Shown piece after piece: positions 24,256-31,404 of a stretch of DNA of 64,000 bases. A model generated the notes under the pieces. That model saw only the letters and a list, made by a program, of their open reading frames with translations. It was not told where the DNA came from and did no database searches. The stretch comes from an uncultured Granulosicoccaceae bacterium (GTDB lineage: Bacteria; Pseudomonadota; Gammaproteobacteria; Granulosicoccales; Granulosicoccaceae). The stretch is from the NCBI GenBank assembly GCA_937931165.1, contig CALHCI010000038.1, forward strand, positions 1 to 64,000. Reading direction: 5' to 3'. The position numbers and the translations under genes were made by a program. Position 1 is the first letter of the stretch; each line of letters begins with the position of its first letter.

Positions 24256-25455
24256 ATGAAAATCACTGACCTCACTACCTTTGTTGTTGGCAACCCTCCC
24301 CCACACAAAGGTGGCAGGTATTTCATTTTTGTAAAGCTGACCACTGATACCGGCATTACCGGTATCGGTGAAGTGTATAACGCAACCTTTTCGCCGCACG
24401 TCATCAAACACATGATTGATGACATTTTCACCTCCCACATAGAAGGTACCGATCCATTTCGTATTGAAACGCTTTGGCGAAACGTGTATGCCCGTGGTTA
24501 TTCATCAAGGCCGGACATCACATTAGTCGGTGTATTAAGCGGGCTTGAAATGGCGCTGTGGGATATCAACGGTAAAGCGCTGGATAAGCCCGTCTACGAA
24601 CTGCTTGGCGGGAAAGTACATGAGAAATTGCGGTCCTATACCTATCTGTACCCGGCCGACGACGGTGATGCCAATAGCGCAGACCCGGTGTACTCAGACC
24701 CGCAGGTTGCTGCCGAACGTGCCGTCCATTATGTATCACAGGGCTTCACTGCCGTGAAGTTCGATCCGGCCGGCGCTTACACCACCTATGACCCGCACCA
24801 GCCGGAACTGGAATCGATTCAACGCTCACAAAAATTCGTCGAAACTATTCGAGCAGCCGTTGGCAACAAGGCAGACCTGCTGTTCGGCACGCATGGTCAG
24901 TTCACCCCGGCTGGTGCAATCCGAATGGCAAAGGCTCTGGAAGCCAGCGATCCGCTATGGTTCGAAGAACCTGTGCCACCCGAAATGCCAGAGCAGATGG
25001 CACGCGTTGCACAGCAGACTTCCATCCCGGTTGCCACCGGTGAAAGACTCACTACCAAGTATGAATTCGCCAGAGTTTTGCAGTGTGGTGCTGCAGCTAT
25101 TCTGCAACCGGCGCTCGGCCGGGTCGGTGGTTTGCTCGAAGGTAAGAAGATTGCCAGCATGGCTGAAACTCACTACGCACAGTTAGCACCGCATTTGTAT
25201 TGTGGACCGGTAGAAGCCGCAGCCAATATTCAGCTTGCCGCCTGTACCCCGAACTTTTTGATCCTGGAAAGTATTGAAACATGGACCGGATTTCATCGCG
25301 ACCTGCTGCAAGGCCCGATCAACTGGCAGGATGGTTACGTCATTCCGCCAACCACCCCCGGACTTGGCATTGAACTCAATGAGGAGGTTGCCCGCAGCCA
25401 CCCCTATAACGATCAGCAATTACATATTGAACCCGCCACAACCCCCATCACCTGA
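24256..25455 (+). CDS. Enolase-superfamily enzyme (mandelate racemase group)
   Basis: 399-residue enzyme with an N-terminal capping domain (1-125) and a TIM barrel. Residues aligned with the superfamily active site: VKFDP on strand 2, GTHGQF on strand 3, WFEEPV (Glu) on strand 4, TGERL (Glu) on strand 5 and a His in APHLYCG. The nearest pattern I know is that of sugar acid dehydratases such as galactonate dehydratase, but the first metal-ligand Asp of D-x-H seems replaced by Gly (G-T-H). The reaction is therefore not assignable; a sugar acid dehydratase or cycloisomerase is likely. It lies 25 bp after the SCO1-like gene. Confidence 0.83.
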   Translation: MKITDLTTFVVGNPPPHKGGRYFIFVKLTTDTGITGIGEVYNATFSPHVIKHMIDDIFTSHIEGTDPFRIETLWRNVYARGYSSRPDITLVGVLSGLEMALWDINGKALDKPVYELLGGKVHEKLRSYTYLYPADDGDANSADPVYSDPQVAAERAVHYVSQGFTAVKFDPAGAYTTYDPHQPELESIQRSQKFVETIRAAVGNKADLLFGTHGQFTPAGAIRMAKALEASDPLWFEEPVPPEMPEQMARVAQQTSIPVATGERLTTKYEFARVLQCGAAAILQPALGRVGGLLEGKKIASMAETHYAQLAPHLYCGPVEAAANIQLAACTPNFLILESIETWTGFHRDLLQGPINWQDGYVIPPTTPGLGIELNEEVARSHPYNDQQLHIEPATTPIT

Positions 25456-25704
25456 CTCTGTACATCGTTACCAACTTGCATGAAGAAATTAGAAAAAAAT
25501 AAGGAAATTCGCGTCACGACCTAAACTTCAATTAGAGCGAACCTTTAAAAACTTCCGCTACACATCAGCAGGTTGTCAATCGTTCAAATTCGCATACTAC
25601 TGTAAAGGCATACATAAAAATAAATTAAATAGCTACATGTACAGCAAGCCTGCACCGAAACCCTGATTATTCAAACCAAAGAAACAGATAGCGAGGAATC
25701 TACC
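25456..25704. other. AT-rich gene-free region before the pilY1 remnant
   Basis: About 250 bp of AT-rich DNA without a supported ORF. It would be the former upstream region of the deleted pilY1 paralogue and may hold its promoter; no clear motif stands out. Confidence 0.35.
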
Positions 25705-25807
25705 ATGAAGTACAAATTGTGACTTCTCAGGCGCAAACAAGGCTATGGAACACGACGGACGCACTCTGACTGAGTGGGTTTACTGGTCTGAGTACCCAAA
25801 TTTCTAG
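25705..25807 (+). pseudogene. Deletion remnant of a second pilY1
   Basis: Codons from 25727 to the TAG at 25805-25807 read S-G-A-N then K-A-M-E then HDGRTLTEWVYWSEYPNF. This matches the last 27 residues of the intact PilY1 at 26103-30809 at 18 of 27 positions, including the final nine VYWSEYPNF. Just upstream, ATG at 25705 behind a gagg starts MKYKL and then hits TGA, out of frame with the tail. The simplest reading is a pilY1-like gene reduced by an internal deletion to its start region and its end. Confidence 0.85.
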
Positions 25808-25859: not shown

Positions 25860-25890
25860 AGGGCGATCGAACCCGACGGCAGATCGCCCT
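25860..25890 (+). terminator. Hairpin after the pilY1 remnant
   Basis: A 9-bp perfect stem (25860-25868 with 25882-25890) and 13-base loop, 52 bp after the remnant stop. There is no T tract, so it may be the old terminator of the lost gene or a regulatory hairpin upstream of the intact pilY1. Confidence 0.45.
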
Positions 25891-26102
25891 TCACCCGAGC
25901 CTGACAAGGCACCATAAATAACTCGACCTGTCGCGAAATCGGGACAATACACCGACCGTAATGTGAAATAACCCTGAAAAATCAACCTTTACACTTGCAT
26001 TGTAACTAAAGATTTCGCTGCAACGACCTCTATATAGCCGGAACTAAAAGGATGTACCGGTAGACCCACGGACCGCCGCGGGTCGATTCATAAGAGGCCA
26101 AC
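25891..26102 (+). other. Upstream region of pilY1
   Basis: About 210 bp between the hairpin and the pilY1 start; it must hold the pilY1 promoter. AGAGG lies 7 bases upstream of the ATG. No other feature is evident. Confidence 0.4.
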
Positions 26103-29100
26103 ATGCTCGAACAGATATCAAAGCTTCGCTGTATCGGATACTTTTTTATCCTGACACTTTTGTGCGGCAATCCGTTGTGGGCGGATGATACAGAAATATT
26201 CTTCAGTCGAGCCAGCTCAGCAGACATTCAACCCAATGTGTTGTTCATACTCGACGGATCCGGCTCAATGTCCTGGTACGATTGTGCCAATGGCTCAGTC
26301 AGATCAAGTTCCTGTGACGACGGCACCCCTAACGGTACTACTACGCGCCTCGCACGCCTGAAGGACTCACTAAAAACAGTCCTCAACAACACCAGCAATA
26401 TCAATGTCGGACTAATGCGTTTTAGTCACTCTAGTAGTGGAGGACGTATTACGTATCCGATTAGAAATATTGATCAGCAGATGTGTAACGGGGTGCCATG
26501 CAGCGATGATTCTACATTCACAGCCCAGTCACGCAGCCGGGCCAGTGAGGATGACGCCGCTGAACTCGCTAACGGAGACGTCAACATTTCAGAATCGACC
26601 ATTGCTCTAACCACGCGAGTGGCCGCTTCAACGAAACCTGTTAGCTATGAATACTTCGAAGGTAACTGGAACAAACTGCCCGACTTCAACACATTGACCC
26701 CGGTTGAGACAGGCACAATAGACAACTTCAGCATAGATCCCGCAACCGCGAATAACCATTTCGGTTTCAGACAACAAGCCACGCTGGAAATTACTACTGC
26801 TGGCGAGTACACATTCTACACTCGCTCAGATGATGGCAGTCAACTGTTTATTAATGACCAGATGATCGTCGACAACGACGACTTGCACGGTATGCGAGAA
26901 CGTAGTGGAAAGATTACGCTCCAGCCTGGTGAATACCCGATTATTGTTACCTACTTTGAAAAAACCGGTGGCGCCGGTTTGGAAGTAATGTGGGAGGGTC
27001 CGAATTTTTCAAAACGTAGCATAGATTCATTCGTGACACCTGCGGCTGGAGAAAACGCCTGGGTTGGATTGCGTTTCCCGGATCTTCAAATTCCACAGGG
27101 GGCAACAATCACCGATGCACGTCTGGATGTCTCCTCTGCAAGCGATAGTTTATCAACAACAAATCTGGTGATTCACGCAGAAGATACCGAGAACTCAGCG
27201 CCGTTTGCCGGTGATACCAACAATATTAGCCAACGCAACCGTAGCTACACATCCGTCAACTGGAATGCTATTCCCGAGTGGGATGACGACGGAAACTACG
27301 AGACGCCAGACCTGTCCAGCCTTTTACAATTAGTCGTTAATAAACCGGGATGGTGCGGCGGTAACGCTATGGGTTTAATTATCAAAGGTTCCGGTGAACG
27401 ACTTATTGATGCCTACGATGGTGGTTCTGGTACATCCCCCAAATTAAGGGTCTCTTATACGCTCGATAATATTCCCGCTACCGGGGGCTGCACCACAAGC
27501 ACATTCGTCACCCGAATCGCTGACCCGAAAGATGATGCAACAGAGCTGATCTACGATAATAACAGTTATGGTACCGGTCTCAACTATGCAGTCGCACCTG
27601 TAGCCAAAGCAACGTATCAGAGCTATGGATATGTGTCCGGGTTTAGATTCCGGGAAATCAACGTGCCGAAAGATGCTGAAATAGTAGACGCGACTCTGTC
27701 GCTAACCACCAAAAATTATGGCTGGTACTCCAGTTATCCATCATTAACACTCACTGCACACGATGATGCCAATCCGGCCAGCCTGCAAGCTCGCACAAAT
27801 AATCTGACTGGCAGACCAAGAACATCTTCAGTCAGTTGGGACAACATAACTTCAGACTCTGATGTCGAGGTAACCAGCCCGTCGGTAAAGGACATCGTTC
27901 AGGATTTGGTAGAAAAAAGTGATTGGGCTATAGGTAACCCGATGGTGTTCCTGCTTGAAGAGGATGGCAGTGGTGGACACAATTTCCTAAGCTATGACGG
28001 TGCTCCTTCAAAAGCCGCACAATTGAAAATCACATTCAAAAGCAATATTCAAAATACGCTGGACACTATCACCGGCCCGGTTACTGATGTCCGGTCCGAA
28101 ATCATTGCAGAAATTGACTCAATGGTGGCAAACCACGGAACACCGACCGTTGGTGCTATGCTGGAAGCAAGACGATACTTCGCCGGCGACCAGGTTAAAT
28201 ATGGATTGAATCGCTACGCAAATTATACAAGTACAAGCTCCACAGGAAGATACTCAAGGGTGTCTACACCGGATTCCTATACCGGAGGTACTGTTGTTCG
28301 AGATGCCAGCTGCAACATCAATGCACCTGATGGAAGGTACTGTGCTTCCGAACACATTACCGGCTCACCGACTTATATCTCACCTTTTACCCACGAGTGT
28401 CAGAGCAACCACATTGTTCTGCTGACGGACGGCGAGCCTAATGCTGATTCCACAGCGGCTAGTGAAGTGATGGCGCTCACTGGTGGCGGATGTGTAGATG
28501 AACCAGGCGGTTATGGTACCTGCGGTGAAGAAATTGCCAGCTACCTGAGCAATTACGATCAACATAGCCATAGCGGTGATCAAACTATCACCACGCATAC
28601 CATTGGTTTCAATTTCACAACACAGTGGTTAAAGGATGTAGCCAGCGAGGGTGGTGGTGGTTATTACACTGCAGATACTGCCTCACAGCTAAGTGCCGCA
28701 CTGGCCAATATTATCGACTCTGTGCAGGATGACGGCACTACGTTTGTCGCACCTGGAGCAACGGTTGATCACTTTTCAAAAATATCGCATCGCAACGATA
28801 TTTACCTGGCGCTGTTCCAGCCCAAGTCAGGTCCACGCTGGGTAGGCAATCTGAAACGCTACGACTTTTCAGGTAAACCGGCAGTATTGCACGATGCCAA
28901 TGACAACCCGGCCATTGATCCAGAAACCGGACAGTTTTACAACGAGGCCAAAAGTATCTGGTCCGCCACTGCAGATGGTAATCACGTACCCGCAGGTGGT
29001 GCCGCCAGCAGATTGGTGCCGGGTGATCGGAAGCTTTATACCTATACAGGAACTTCATCCTATTTGACGGCAGATTCTAATAAATTTGACGAATCGAACG

Positions 29101-30809
29101 ATGATATCACCGCTGCTGATCTGGGCCTGTCACTGAACGATGAAGACGAAAGAGAAGCATTGCTTGAGTGGGCCCGCGGTTATGACATTGCTGACGAGGA
29201 CGCAGACTCGCAAACCTCTGACTCGCGATACTACCTGGGCGATCCATTGCATTCAAAGCCCGTCATCGTGACCTATGGTGGTACGACCGCAGAACCGGAT
29301 TCACTTATTTTCTTTGGCACCAATGAGGGTTTTTTACACGCCATTAACACGGATACAGGCGATGAAGAGTTCGCGTTTATTCCGACCGAGTTACTACCGA
29401 ACCTGAAACCACAGTTCGAAAATTCACCCAGTGCCAATAAGGTCTATGGGATTGATGGTGCGTTGTCTCTTTGGAAAAAAGATATCAACAAAAACGGATC
29501 TGTCGATGGTGATGATCATGTCTATCTCTACACAGGCATGCGAAGAGGTGGCAACAGCTATTACTCGCTGGATGTGACCGATAAAGAATCTCCAGAATTT
29601 AAATGGCAGATTGACGGAGGCCCCGGTGGTACAGACGGTTTCTCTGAACTGGCGCAAACCTGGTCTCAGATGGTTCCAGCCACCATTAAATACGGCACCA
29701 CTACCAAGAAGGTTGTTATTTTCGGTGGAGGCTACGACGTATCGCAGGACGACAAGTTAACGCGCTCCGAAGACTCGGTAGGTCGTGCGATCTATATCGT
29801 CGATGCATCATCAGGCAGCCTGTTGTGGAGTGGTGGTGCAGGAGACGGTGACGAAACCGTAAAGTTCGAAGAGATGATTTACAGCATGCCTGCTACACCA
29901 AAGATTATTGATATCGATGGAGATGGCGCTGTAGAACAGATATACATCGGTGATATGGGCGGCAGAGTCTGGCGCTTCGACATCGATGTAACTTCTGATG
30001 ATCTCGATATCACCGGTGGCATTATCGCTGATCTTGGACAAGACGGTGTACTGGCCGATGCCCGACGTTTTTACCACACGCCGGATATCTCACTTTCGCG
30101 TCACAATGGTGAACTACTCGTGAATATTGCGATAGGTTCCGGTTTCCAGGCGCATCCACTAGACACTGCAATCGAAGACAGATTTTATCTGCTTCGATAT
30201 CCATACGAATTTGAAGGCAATGACAAATACGGCATGTTTGATGACAGCGTCACCGCTTCAGCCACTGGACTGCTGACCAACTCATCAGGTTATCGACCCA
30301 TCACTGAAAGTGACTTGTTCGACGCGACTGACAATATTATTGGTGATGGTACCGGTGAGCAAATCAAAGCAGCAAGGCAACAATTGGCAAATGCCGAAGG
30401 CTGGTTTATCAAGATGGAGCAAAGCGGTGAAAAAATTCTTGGCTCGTCGGTCACTTTTGACAATACCGTGATGTTTGCGAGTTATATACCCGACGGCACG
30501 ATATCCGGTTGTTCACCCCAGATAGGCAGCGGCGTGTTCTGGGCAGTTAGTCTGTGGGATGCGACACCGACAGAAGAATTCGATGACGACGAGTCAAAGC
30601 TCAGCAAAACTGATCGCAACAAACCCATTCCGGGCGCAGGCTTGCCGCCACCGCCGCAAACACTGATTCTGCAAACCACTGACGACGAAGAGGATCCGGT
30701 TCCGGGTGACGTACAGATCGTCACGGTGTCAGGTGGCAACACACTGTTGACGCATGACGGTCGAGCGCTAATCGAAAGAGTGTACTGGTCAGAGTATCCT
30801 AACTTTTAG
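26103..30809 (+). CDS. pilY1: PilY1-type pilus tip adhesin / assembly protein
   Basis: 1568-residue exported protein; signal peptide residues 1-27. A vWA domain starts with the MIDAS motif DGSGS (about 51) but is interrupted: residues about 160-655 hold a PA14-like sugar-binding module (about 170-305) and two related beta-sandwich modules (about 310-455 and 495-650, each with NAWVGLRF- or YVSGFRF-type starts). The vWA resumes with TPTVGAML (about 680) and LLTDGEPN (about 775). A C-terminal PilC/PilY1 beta-propeller (about 885-1500) contains a calcium loop D-I-N-K-N-G-S-V-D-G-D-D near 1127 and DIDGDGAV near 1275. PilY1 promotes pilus extension, adhesion and surface sensing. Minor pilin genes, the usual neighbours, are absent here. 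Confidence 0.93.
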   Translation: MLEQISKLRCIGYFFILTLLCGNPLWADDTEIFFSRASSADIQPNVLFILDGSGSMSWYDCANGSVRSSSCDDGTPNGTTTRLARLKDSLKTVLNNTSNINVGLMRFSHSSSGGRITYPIRNIDQQMCNGVPCSDDSTFTAQSRSRASEDDAAELANGDVNISESTIALTTRVAASTKPVSYEYFEGNWNKLPDFNTLTPVETGTIDNFSIDPATANNHFGFRQQATLEITTAGEYTFYTRSDDGSQLFINDQMIVDNDDLHGMRERSGKITLQPGEYPIIVTYFEKTGGAGLEVMWEGPNFSKRSIDSFVTPAAGENAWVGLRFPDLQIPQGATITDARLDVSSASDSLSTTNLVIHAEDTENSAPFAGDTNNISQRNRSYTSVNWNAIPEWDDDGNYETPDLSSLLQLVVNKPGWCGGNAMGLIIKGSGERLIDAYDGGSGTSPKLRVSYTLDNIPATGGCTTSTFVTRIADPKDDATELIYDNNSYGTGLNYAVAPVAKATYQSYGYVSGFRFREINVPKDAEIVDATLSLTTKNYGWYSSYPSLTLTAHDDANPASLQARTNNLTGRPRTSSVSWDNITSDSDVEVTSPSVKDIVQDLVEKSDWAIGNPMVFLLEEDGSGGHNFLSYDGAPSKAAQLKITFKSNIQNTLDTITGPVTDVRSEIIAEIDSMVANHGTPTVGAMLEARRYFAGDQVKYGLNRYANYTSTSSTGRYSRVSTPDSYTGGTVVRDASCNINAPDGRYCASEHITGSPTYISPFTHECQSNHIVLLTDGEPNADSTAASEVMALTGGGCVDEPGGYGTCGEEIASYLSNYDQHSHSGDQTITTHTIGFNFTTQWLKDVASEGGGGYYTADTASQLSAALANIIDSVQDDGTTFVAPGATVDHFSKISHRNDIYLALFQPKSGPRWVGNLKRYDFSGKPAVLHDANDNPAIDPETGQFYNEAKSIWSATADGNHVPAGGAASRLVPGDRKLYTYTGTSSYLTADSNKFDESNDDITAADLGLSLNDEDEREALLEWARGYDIADEDADSQTSDSRYYLGDPLHSKPVIVTYGGTTAEPDSLIFFGTNEGFLHAINTDTGDEEFAFIPTELLPNLKPQFENSPSANKVYGIDGALSLWKKDINKNGSVDGDDHVYLYTGMRRGGNSYYSLDVTDKESPEFKWQIDGGPGGTDGFSELAQTWSQMVPATIKYGTTTKKVVIFGGGYDVSQDDKLTRSEDSVGRAIYIVDASSGSLLWSGGAGDGDETVKFEEMIYSMPATPKIIDIDGDGAVEQIYIGDMGGRVWRFDIDVTSDDLDITGGIIADLGQDGVLADARRFYHTPDISLSRHNGELLVNIAIGSGFQAHPLDTAIEDRFYLLRYPYEFEGNDKYGMFDDSVTASATGLLTNSSGYRPITESDLFDATDNIIGDGTGEQIKAARQQLANAEGWFIKMEQSGEKILGSSVTFDNTVMFASYIPDGTISGCSPQIGSGVFWAVSLWDATPTEEFDDDESKLSKTDRNKPIPGAGLPPPPQTLILQTTDDEEDPVPGDVQIVTVSGGNTLLTHDGRALIERVYWSEYPNF

Positions 30810-31404
30810 TCACACTCTGCTGAAACGAAGAAAGCAACGCCGCACCATCGGCCGGAGTAACCGGACTGATGGTGCGGCTTTCAGGGTTAACACAAATTGC
30901 CTGCAATTCGTCCGGCTGCATACTGGCGATTCCCTTGTAGTAGCTGATCTGTAACTCATCACCTCCACCTGCCTGCATCGATTGCAACTGCGACTGACTC
31001 CAGGCGAATCGCCGCGATCCACCAGCACCGTTGATTTTGTAAAGTGGCGGCTGAATAACAAATAGCCGCTGTTGTTCGAGTAAGGCTGGATAATGCAGAC
31101 TGAAAAACATCATCAATAACGTTCTGGCATGGATGCCGTCGGCATCCGCATCACAAAGCAGTAATACACGCGCATAGCGTATTTTAGTATCAGTGATTTC
31201 AATCGCTTTCTGCAGCGATTGAATATGCGGATTTTTAAATATTCTGGTTTTGTTTGAAGGTCGTGCAGGATTTGGAATCTTACCCTGCATTGCAATAACC
31301 GCCTGAGTCCGTCTGTTTCTTATCTGACGAAGCGCGTTCCCCGCATCCCGACCCTCGACGACAAATATTTCACCGTGACCAGGCTCATCGCATTCCAGCA
31401 ACAT
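30799..31404 (-). CDS. Stand-alone TOPRIM protein (GyrB/ParE C-terminal half)
   Basis: 201-residue protein matching only the TOPRIM and tail region of type IIA topoisomerase B subunits. The TOPRIM glutamate is in FVVEGRDAG and the metal-binding acids in LLLCDADADG; downstream are PPLYKI and SYYKGIASMQPDEL then NPESRT, all standard GyrB landmarks. The ATPase and transducer domains are absent, and the ATG falls just before the TOPRIM, so this is an isolated module and not a recent break. It could act with a GyrA/ParC subunit, as an inhibitor, or as a nuclease; function unknown. It overlaps the pilY1 stop by 11 bp tail to tail and lies 41 bp after the ProQ gene. Confidence 0.85.
   Translation of the reverse strand: MLLECDEPGHGEIFVVEGRDAGNALRQIRNRRTQAVIAMQGKIPNPARPSNKTRIFKNPHIQSLQKAIEITDTKIRYARVLLLCDADADGIHARTLLMMFFSLHYPALLEQQRLFVIQPPLYKINGAGGSRRFAWSQSQLQSMQAGGGDELQISYYKGIASMQPDELQAICVNPESRTISPVTPADGAALLSSFQQSVTKS

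Follow-up and report, generated by a model that had tools for sequence, protein, structure and literature searches.

Within the window (the whole stretch of 64,000 nucleotides of DNA that was analysed), an intact pilY1-like gene is located between a gene of the mandelate racemase/enolase superfamily and a convergent gene encoding a stand-alone TOPRIM protein (Table 1). The PF05567 beta-propeller of the pilY1 product is matched with an E value of 5e-12, and the match passes the curated cut-off. Proteins of the PilY1/PilC family are tip adhesins of type IV pili, and some occur as two paralogues in one genome (pilC1/pilC2 in Neisseria). Ahead of the intact pilY1 by 295 bp, and on the same strand, there is a second, far shorter sequence related to the 3' end of the gene, which is called the relic below.

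Table 1 Features of the pilY1 locus, numbered from the first nucleotide of the window
Feature	Position	Strand	Evidence
Mandelate racemase/enolase-superfamily gene, intact, upstream neighbour	24256..25455	+	Pfam; 75-89% identical in relatives
AT-rich spacer, racemase stop to relic	25456..25648	no strand	Shuffle-level scores; composition; no match in 15 genomes
pilY1 3'-end relic, about the last 53 codons, at least two frameshifts	25649..25807	+	nhmmer E = 1e-20 and codon-level alignment
Relic block 1, ETLIIQT (intact gene: QTLILQT)	25657..25677	+	Codon-level alignment and blastn match, same place in the G009 gene
Relic block 2, EVQIVT (intact gene: DVQIVT), one frame shifted, overlaps ATG 25705	25707..25724	+	Alignment
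Relic block 3, SGANKAMEHDGRTLTEWVYWSEYPNF and stop, shifted again (one base short ahead of the block)	25727..25807	+	tblastn, tail profile, alignment
9-bp hairpin 3' of the relic, no T run, weak terminator candidate	25860..25890	+	Fold z = -2.5; not called by terminator scan
Intact pilY1-like gene, 1568 aa (VWA-like, PA14, PilY1 beta-propeller)	26103..30809	+	Pfam T4P_PilY1 5e-12, PA14 1e-14
Convergent stand-alone TOPRIM protein gene, end overlaps the pilY1 end	30799..31404	-	Pfam and comparison with relatives

Several features of the neighbouring sequences were recorded as well. In the intact PilY1, a PA14 domain is inserted at about residues 173-316 (26620-27050), and the orthologues of the related genomes G009, G001 and G013 are without PA14 at this place. 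One PilY1 of G003 carries an F5/8 type C domain in place of PA14, and the occurrence of PA14 and F5/8 type C in different PilY1 proteins indicates that lectin-like modules are exchanged in the family. Upstream of pilY1, the sequence ACCTCTATATAGCC (26020-26045) is common to G009 and nearly so to G001, and represents a candidate conserved promoter element; a sigma-70 scan called no site at these positions. At the opposite end (30799-30880), the pilY1 and TOPRIM genes converge so closely that their stop regions overlap, and an inverted repeat that lies within the 3' end of the TOPRIM gene and is conserved in G009 may act as the pilY1 terminator. The TOPRIM protein (201 aa) consists of TOPRIM and the C-terminal part of GyrB/ParE alone, has no ATPase part, and keeps VEGxxA and DADADG. 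Of the 14 genus genomes, all but G002 (13) carry its gene as a short open frame, which adjoins the ProQ gene wherever the locus was inspected; the protein is 32-53% identical between relatives, compared with mostly 50-90% for the neighbours.

Extent and reading frames of the relic

A repeat of the last 27 residues of PilY1, lying upstream of the intact gene, had been described from the letters of the DNA before any database search (hereafter the sequence-only reading), and it was recovered exactly as claimed. The two copies (FSGANKAMEHDGRTLTEWVYWSEYPNF versus VSGGNTLLTHDGRALIERVYWSEYPNF) match at 18 of 27 positions with the final nine residues identical, and their ungapped BLOSUM62 score is 101, against 22 for the next best position in the six frames of the whole window. 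The same repeat was found by tblastn against the whole genome (E = 2e-4) and with a profile of pilY1 tails (E = 5e-9). The match is longer than the 81 bp reported, however: an nhmmer DNA profile built from seven related pilY1 3' ends aligned to 159 bp (25649-25807, E = 1e-20), of which the additional part had been missed because it is out of frame.

Further alignment showed that the relic follows the last ~53 codons of pilY1 in order, spread across three reading frames. Its three blocks fall in three successive frames, which requires at least two frameshifts; in the third block, residues SGAN...YPNF (25727-25804) align with SGGN...YPNF of the intact pilY1. The nonapeptide that ends this block is conserved across the PilY1 family itself, and the relic encodes no domain of the family. 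What is left is a contiguous piece amounting to about 3% of pilY1 at its 3' end.

An ATG at 25705, with a ribosome binding site and five codons (MKYKL), had been read as the beginning of the lost copy, still in place. This ATG falls inside the 3' homology and overlaps EVQIVT out of frame, so it is a product of chance and no remnant of a gene start. The proposed joint of an internal deletion was not found either: the contiguous 3' end alone is visible, and the preceding 193 bp match no pilY1 promoter or 5' end, with shuffle-level scores when 25456-25648 was compared with the promoter and 5' end of the pilY1 genes of the window, G009 and G001. A similarity comparison of the 3' flank of the relic likewise gave nothing above shuffles.

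Homology to the coding end of pilY1, a disrupted frame and a coding ancestor are all found in the 159-bp element, which is well supported as an ordinary frameshifted pseudogene relic, the 3' end of a second, diverged pilY1.

An origin as an assembly artefact was dismissed, because the relic departs from the intact tail by 32% across the 39 aligned codons, lies mid-contig, and has conserved synteny on either side.

Codon positions and kinship of the relic

The relic and the intact gene were compared over 39 alignable codons, and were found to differ at 7 first, 5 second and 26 third positions (26 of 38 differences at the third). Where the intact gene and the G009 orthologue agree, the relic has changed at 12 of 21 third positions and at 8 of 72 first and second positions (Fisher p = 4e-5); where G001 agrees too, the corresponding counts are 4 of 9 and 3 of 54 (p = 0.006). 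Such a third-position bias indicates that most of the divergence built up while the lost copy was still coding and under constraint, and that its frame was broken afterwards. Judged from these codon positions, the lost copy is shown to have been a gene that must have worked for much of the time since it separated from the present pilY1.

At the amino acid level, the closest sequence to the relic is the intact gene (72% identity), followed by the orthologues of G009 (67%) and G001 (54%). Distance trees place it with the intact gene and G009, at bootstrap values of 66% (DNA) and 75% (protein) over 39 codons; the relic groups weakly with these two genes, the values being low because it is short. 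The divergence between the copies had also been taken to mean that the pair was old, but it gives no age for such a pair, since a copy acquired from a different lineage would have been divergent from the outset.

pilY1 at this locus and elsewhere in the genus

The gene order SCO-like, racemase-family, pilY1, convergent TOPRIM and ProQ is conserved, and 11 related genomes hold the locus, which was not found in G002. A single pilY1 is present in six of them (G001, G007, G009, G010, G011 and G013); the racemase gene is absent from G010, G011 and G013, and the pilY1 of G009 is split by a contig break. The other five (G004, G005, G006, G008 and G012) have no pilY1 between the racemase and TOPRIM genes, and G003 has the TOPRIM-ProQ side without a neighbouring pilY1. 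With one copy in six relatives and none in five, pilY1 is gained and lost at this locus. None of the 11 genomes carries the relic, the two adjacent pilY1 genes anticipated for relatives, or the short element as a free ORF at the locus. The observation that the sequence-only reading had named as an argument against a deleted paralogue therefore did not turn up either. The gap between the racemase gene and pilY1 is 647 bp in the window versus 193 bp in G009, the nearest relative, and the ~450 bp in excess comprise the relic and its flanks. When these ~450 bp were searched in 15 genomes, just pilY1 parts and chance-level matches were obtained.

Tandem genes are present at other sites. Two adjacent pilY1 genes, encoding 1229 and 1057 aa, occur in G003 (contig C11), and adjacent pilY1 matches were also detected in G026 and G018, so pairs are apparently present in the family. 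At the site of the G003 pair, G006 (C195; L168:7089-7475) holds an orphan pilY1 3' tail of 129 codons, which is 64% identical to the second pilY1 of G003 and shares its downstream neighbours with G003 at 73-76% identity. Taken together, the G003 pair and the G006 tail show that the genus includes pilY1 genes standing in tandem as well as a pilY1 reduced to its 3' end. Another orphan tail, of 127 codons, was found in the window's own genome (G000, C98; L169:3968-4348), with 64% identity to the pilY1 on contig C122 of the same genome. Three isolated internal pilY1 tails were counted in the 14 genus genomes, and the profile search of these genomes returned no isolated 5' pieces, of which very short ones would escape it. 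That pilY1 is exchanged or lost by a route sparing the 3' end, with tails marking past adhesin swaps, is decidedly improbable; three cases are too few for a claim of bias.

Origin of the relic and turnover of pilus-tip genes

We consider, with a probability of about 0.7, that a second pilY1, oriented like the present one, once stood between it and the racemase gene and decayed to a dead, functionless fragment, likely through the collapse of a tandem pair. Given the tandem pair of G003 and the tail of G006 at such a site, the deletion of a second pilY1 is well supported, and the tandem position is likely, as the simplest reading of where the relic lies. The sequence-only reading had proposed a collapsed tandem pilY1, and the part that stands is a second, diverged pilY1 of which a 3' remnant survives, with the codon bias and the G003 and G006 precedents behind it. 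Against a collapsed pair, neither a 5' part of the lost copy nor a second promoter is recognisable in 25456-25648, and the tandem pairs known from the genus have no counterpart at this locus in the 11 relatives. On the favoured reading, a tandem pair would have arisen when pilY1 was duplicated or a related pilY1 was taken up, and its second copy stayed working while diverging from the present gene, as the codon-position bias shows. This copy would then have lost all but its last ~160 bp, presumably by deletion, and the remaining tail would have gained the frameshifts that are seen in it, by which time the pair would have shrunk back to one pilY1 beside a relic probably without a function of its own.

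Alternatively, a short 3' piece of a related pilY1, derived from a different locus or from foreign DNA, may have been inserted together with its flanks, no complete second gene ever having been there. This would fit the ~450 extra bp, made up of the relic and of flanks without a match elsewhere, as well as the absence of a pair at this locus from every relative, and the orphan tail on C98 of the same genome suggests that pilY1 tails may move or survive alone. Such an arrival is nevertheless unlikely, as it needs a 3' fragment to have landed by chance only 295 bp ahead of a pilY1 from its own orthologue group and facing the same way, and the G006 tail shows that tails can remain in place at a pilY1 site. 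A partial duplication of the present gene's own tail, dead from birth, would explain why the present gene and the G009 orthologue are the nearest sequences, but it should have changed evenly over codon positions; given the strong third-position bias of the relic, this origin deserves almost no credence.

A retained function was also weighed, either as a small ORF of 20 residues (MEHDGRTLTEWVYWSEYPNF, from 25748) or as a segment that regulates pilY1 or donates sequence to it by recombination. The last block is open and its final nonapeptide is identical to that of the intact gene, yet this nonapeptide is conserved in the PilY1 family anyway, the element has at least two frameshifts, and it is absent from 11 of 11 related genomes with the locus, so that no conservation of a small ORF is seen. 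Homologous recombination needs identity longer than 8 bp, and the longest exact match between the relic and the intact 3' end is 8 bp, which makes the suggested role as a recombination partner very unlikely; a function of any of these kinds is very improbable.

Among known systems, the truncated pseudogenes that remain after one copy of a bacterial gene pair is lost are alike in being a contiguous, frameshifted end beside an intact paralogue and in being absent from relatives, and no essential difference from them was seen, the relic keeping just ~3% at the 3' end. Its source, the PilY1/PilC tip adhesin family (PF05567), has several paralogues per genome and tandem pairs in the genus (G003). 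Orphan 3' ends of CDI/Rhs toxins are intact alternative modules that are recruited by recombination via shared core sequence. They resemble the relic as 3' fragments near a full gene, whereas the relic is frameshifted, lies upstream and matches the intact 3' end without a break for no more than 8 bases. The portion of the literature reached by our search held nothing relevant.

The relic is ordinary genome decay within a fast-turning gene family, whose members these marine bacteria often acquire, carry in pairs and lose. Alone, it records that one copy of an adhesin gene was lost. Combined with the presence and absence of pilY1 among relatives, the G003 pair and the G006 tail, the relic points to pilus-tip genes that turn over rapidly in uncultured Granulosicoccaceae-like bacteria, and relics of this kind could serve to trace the turnover from genome to genome.
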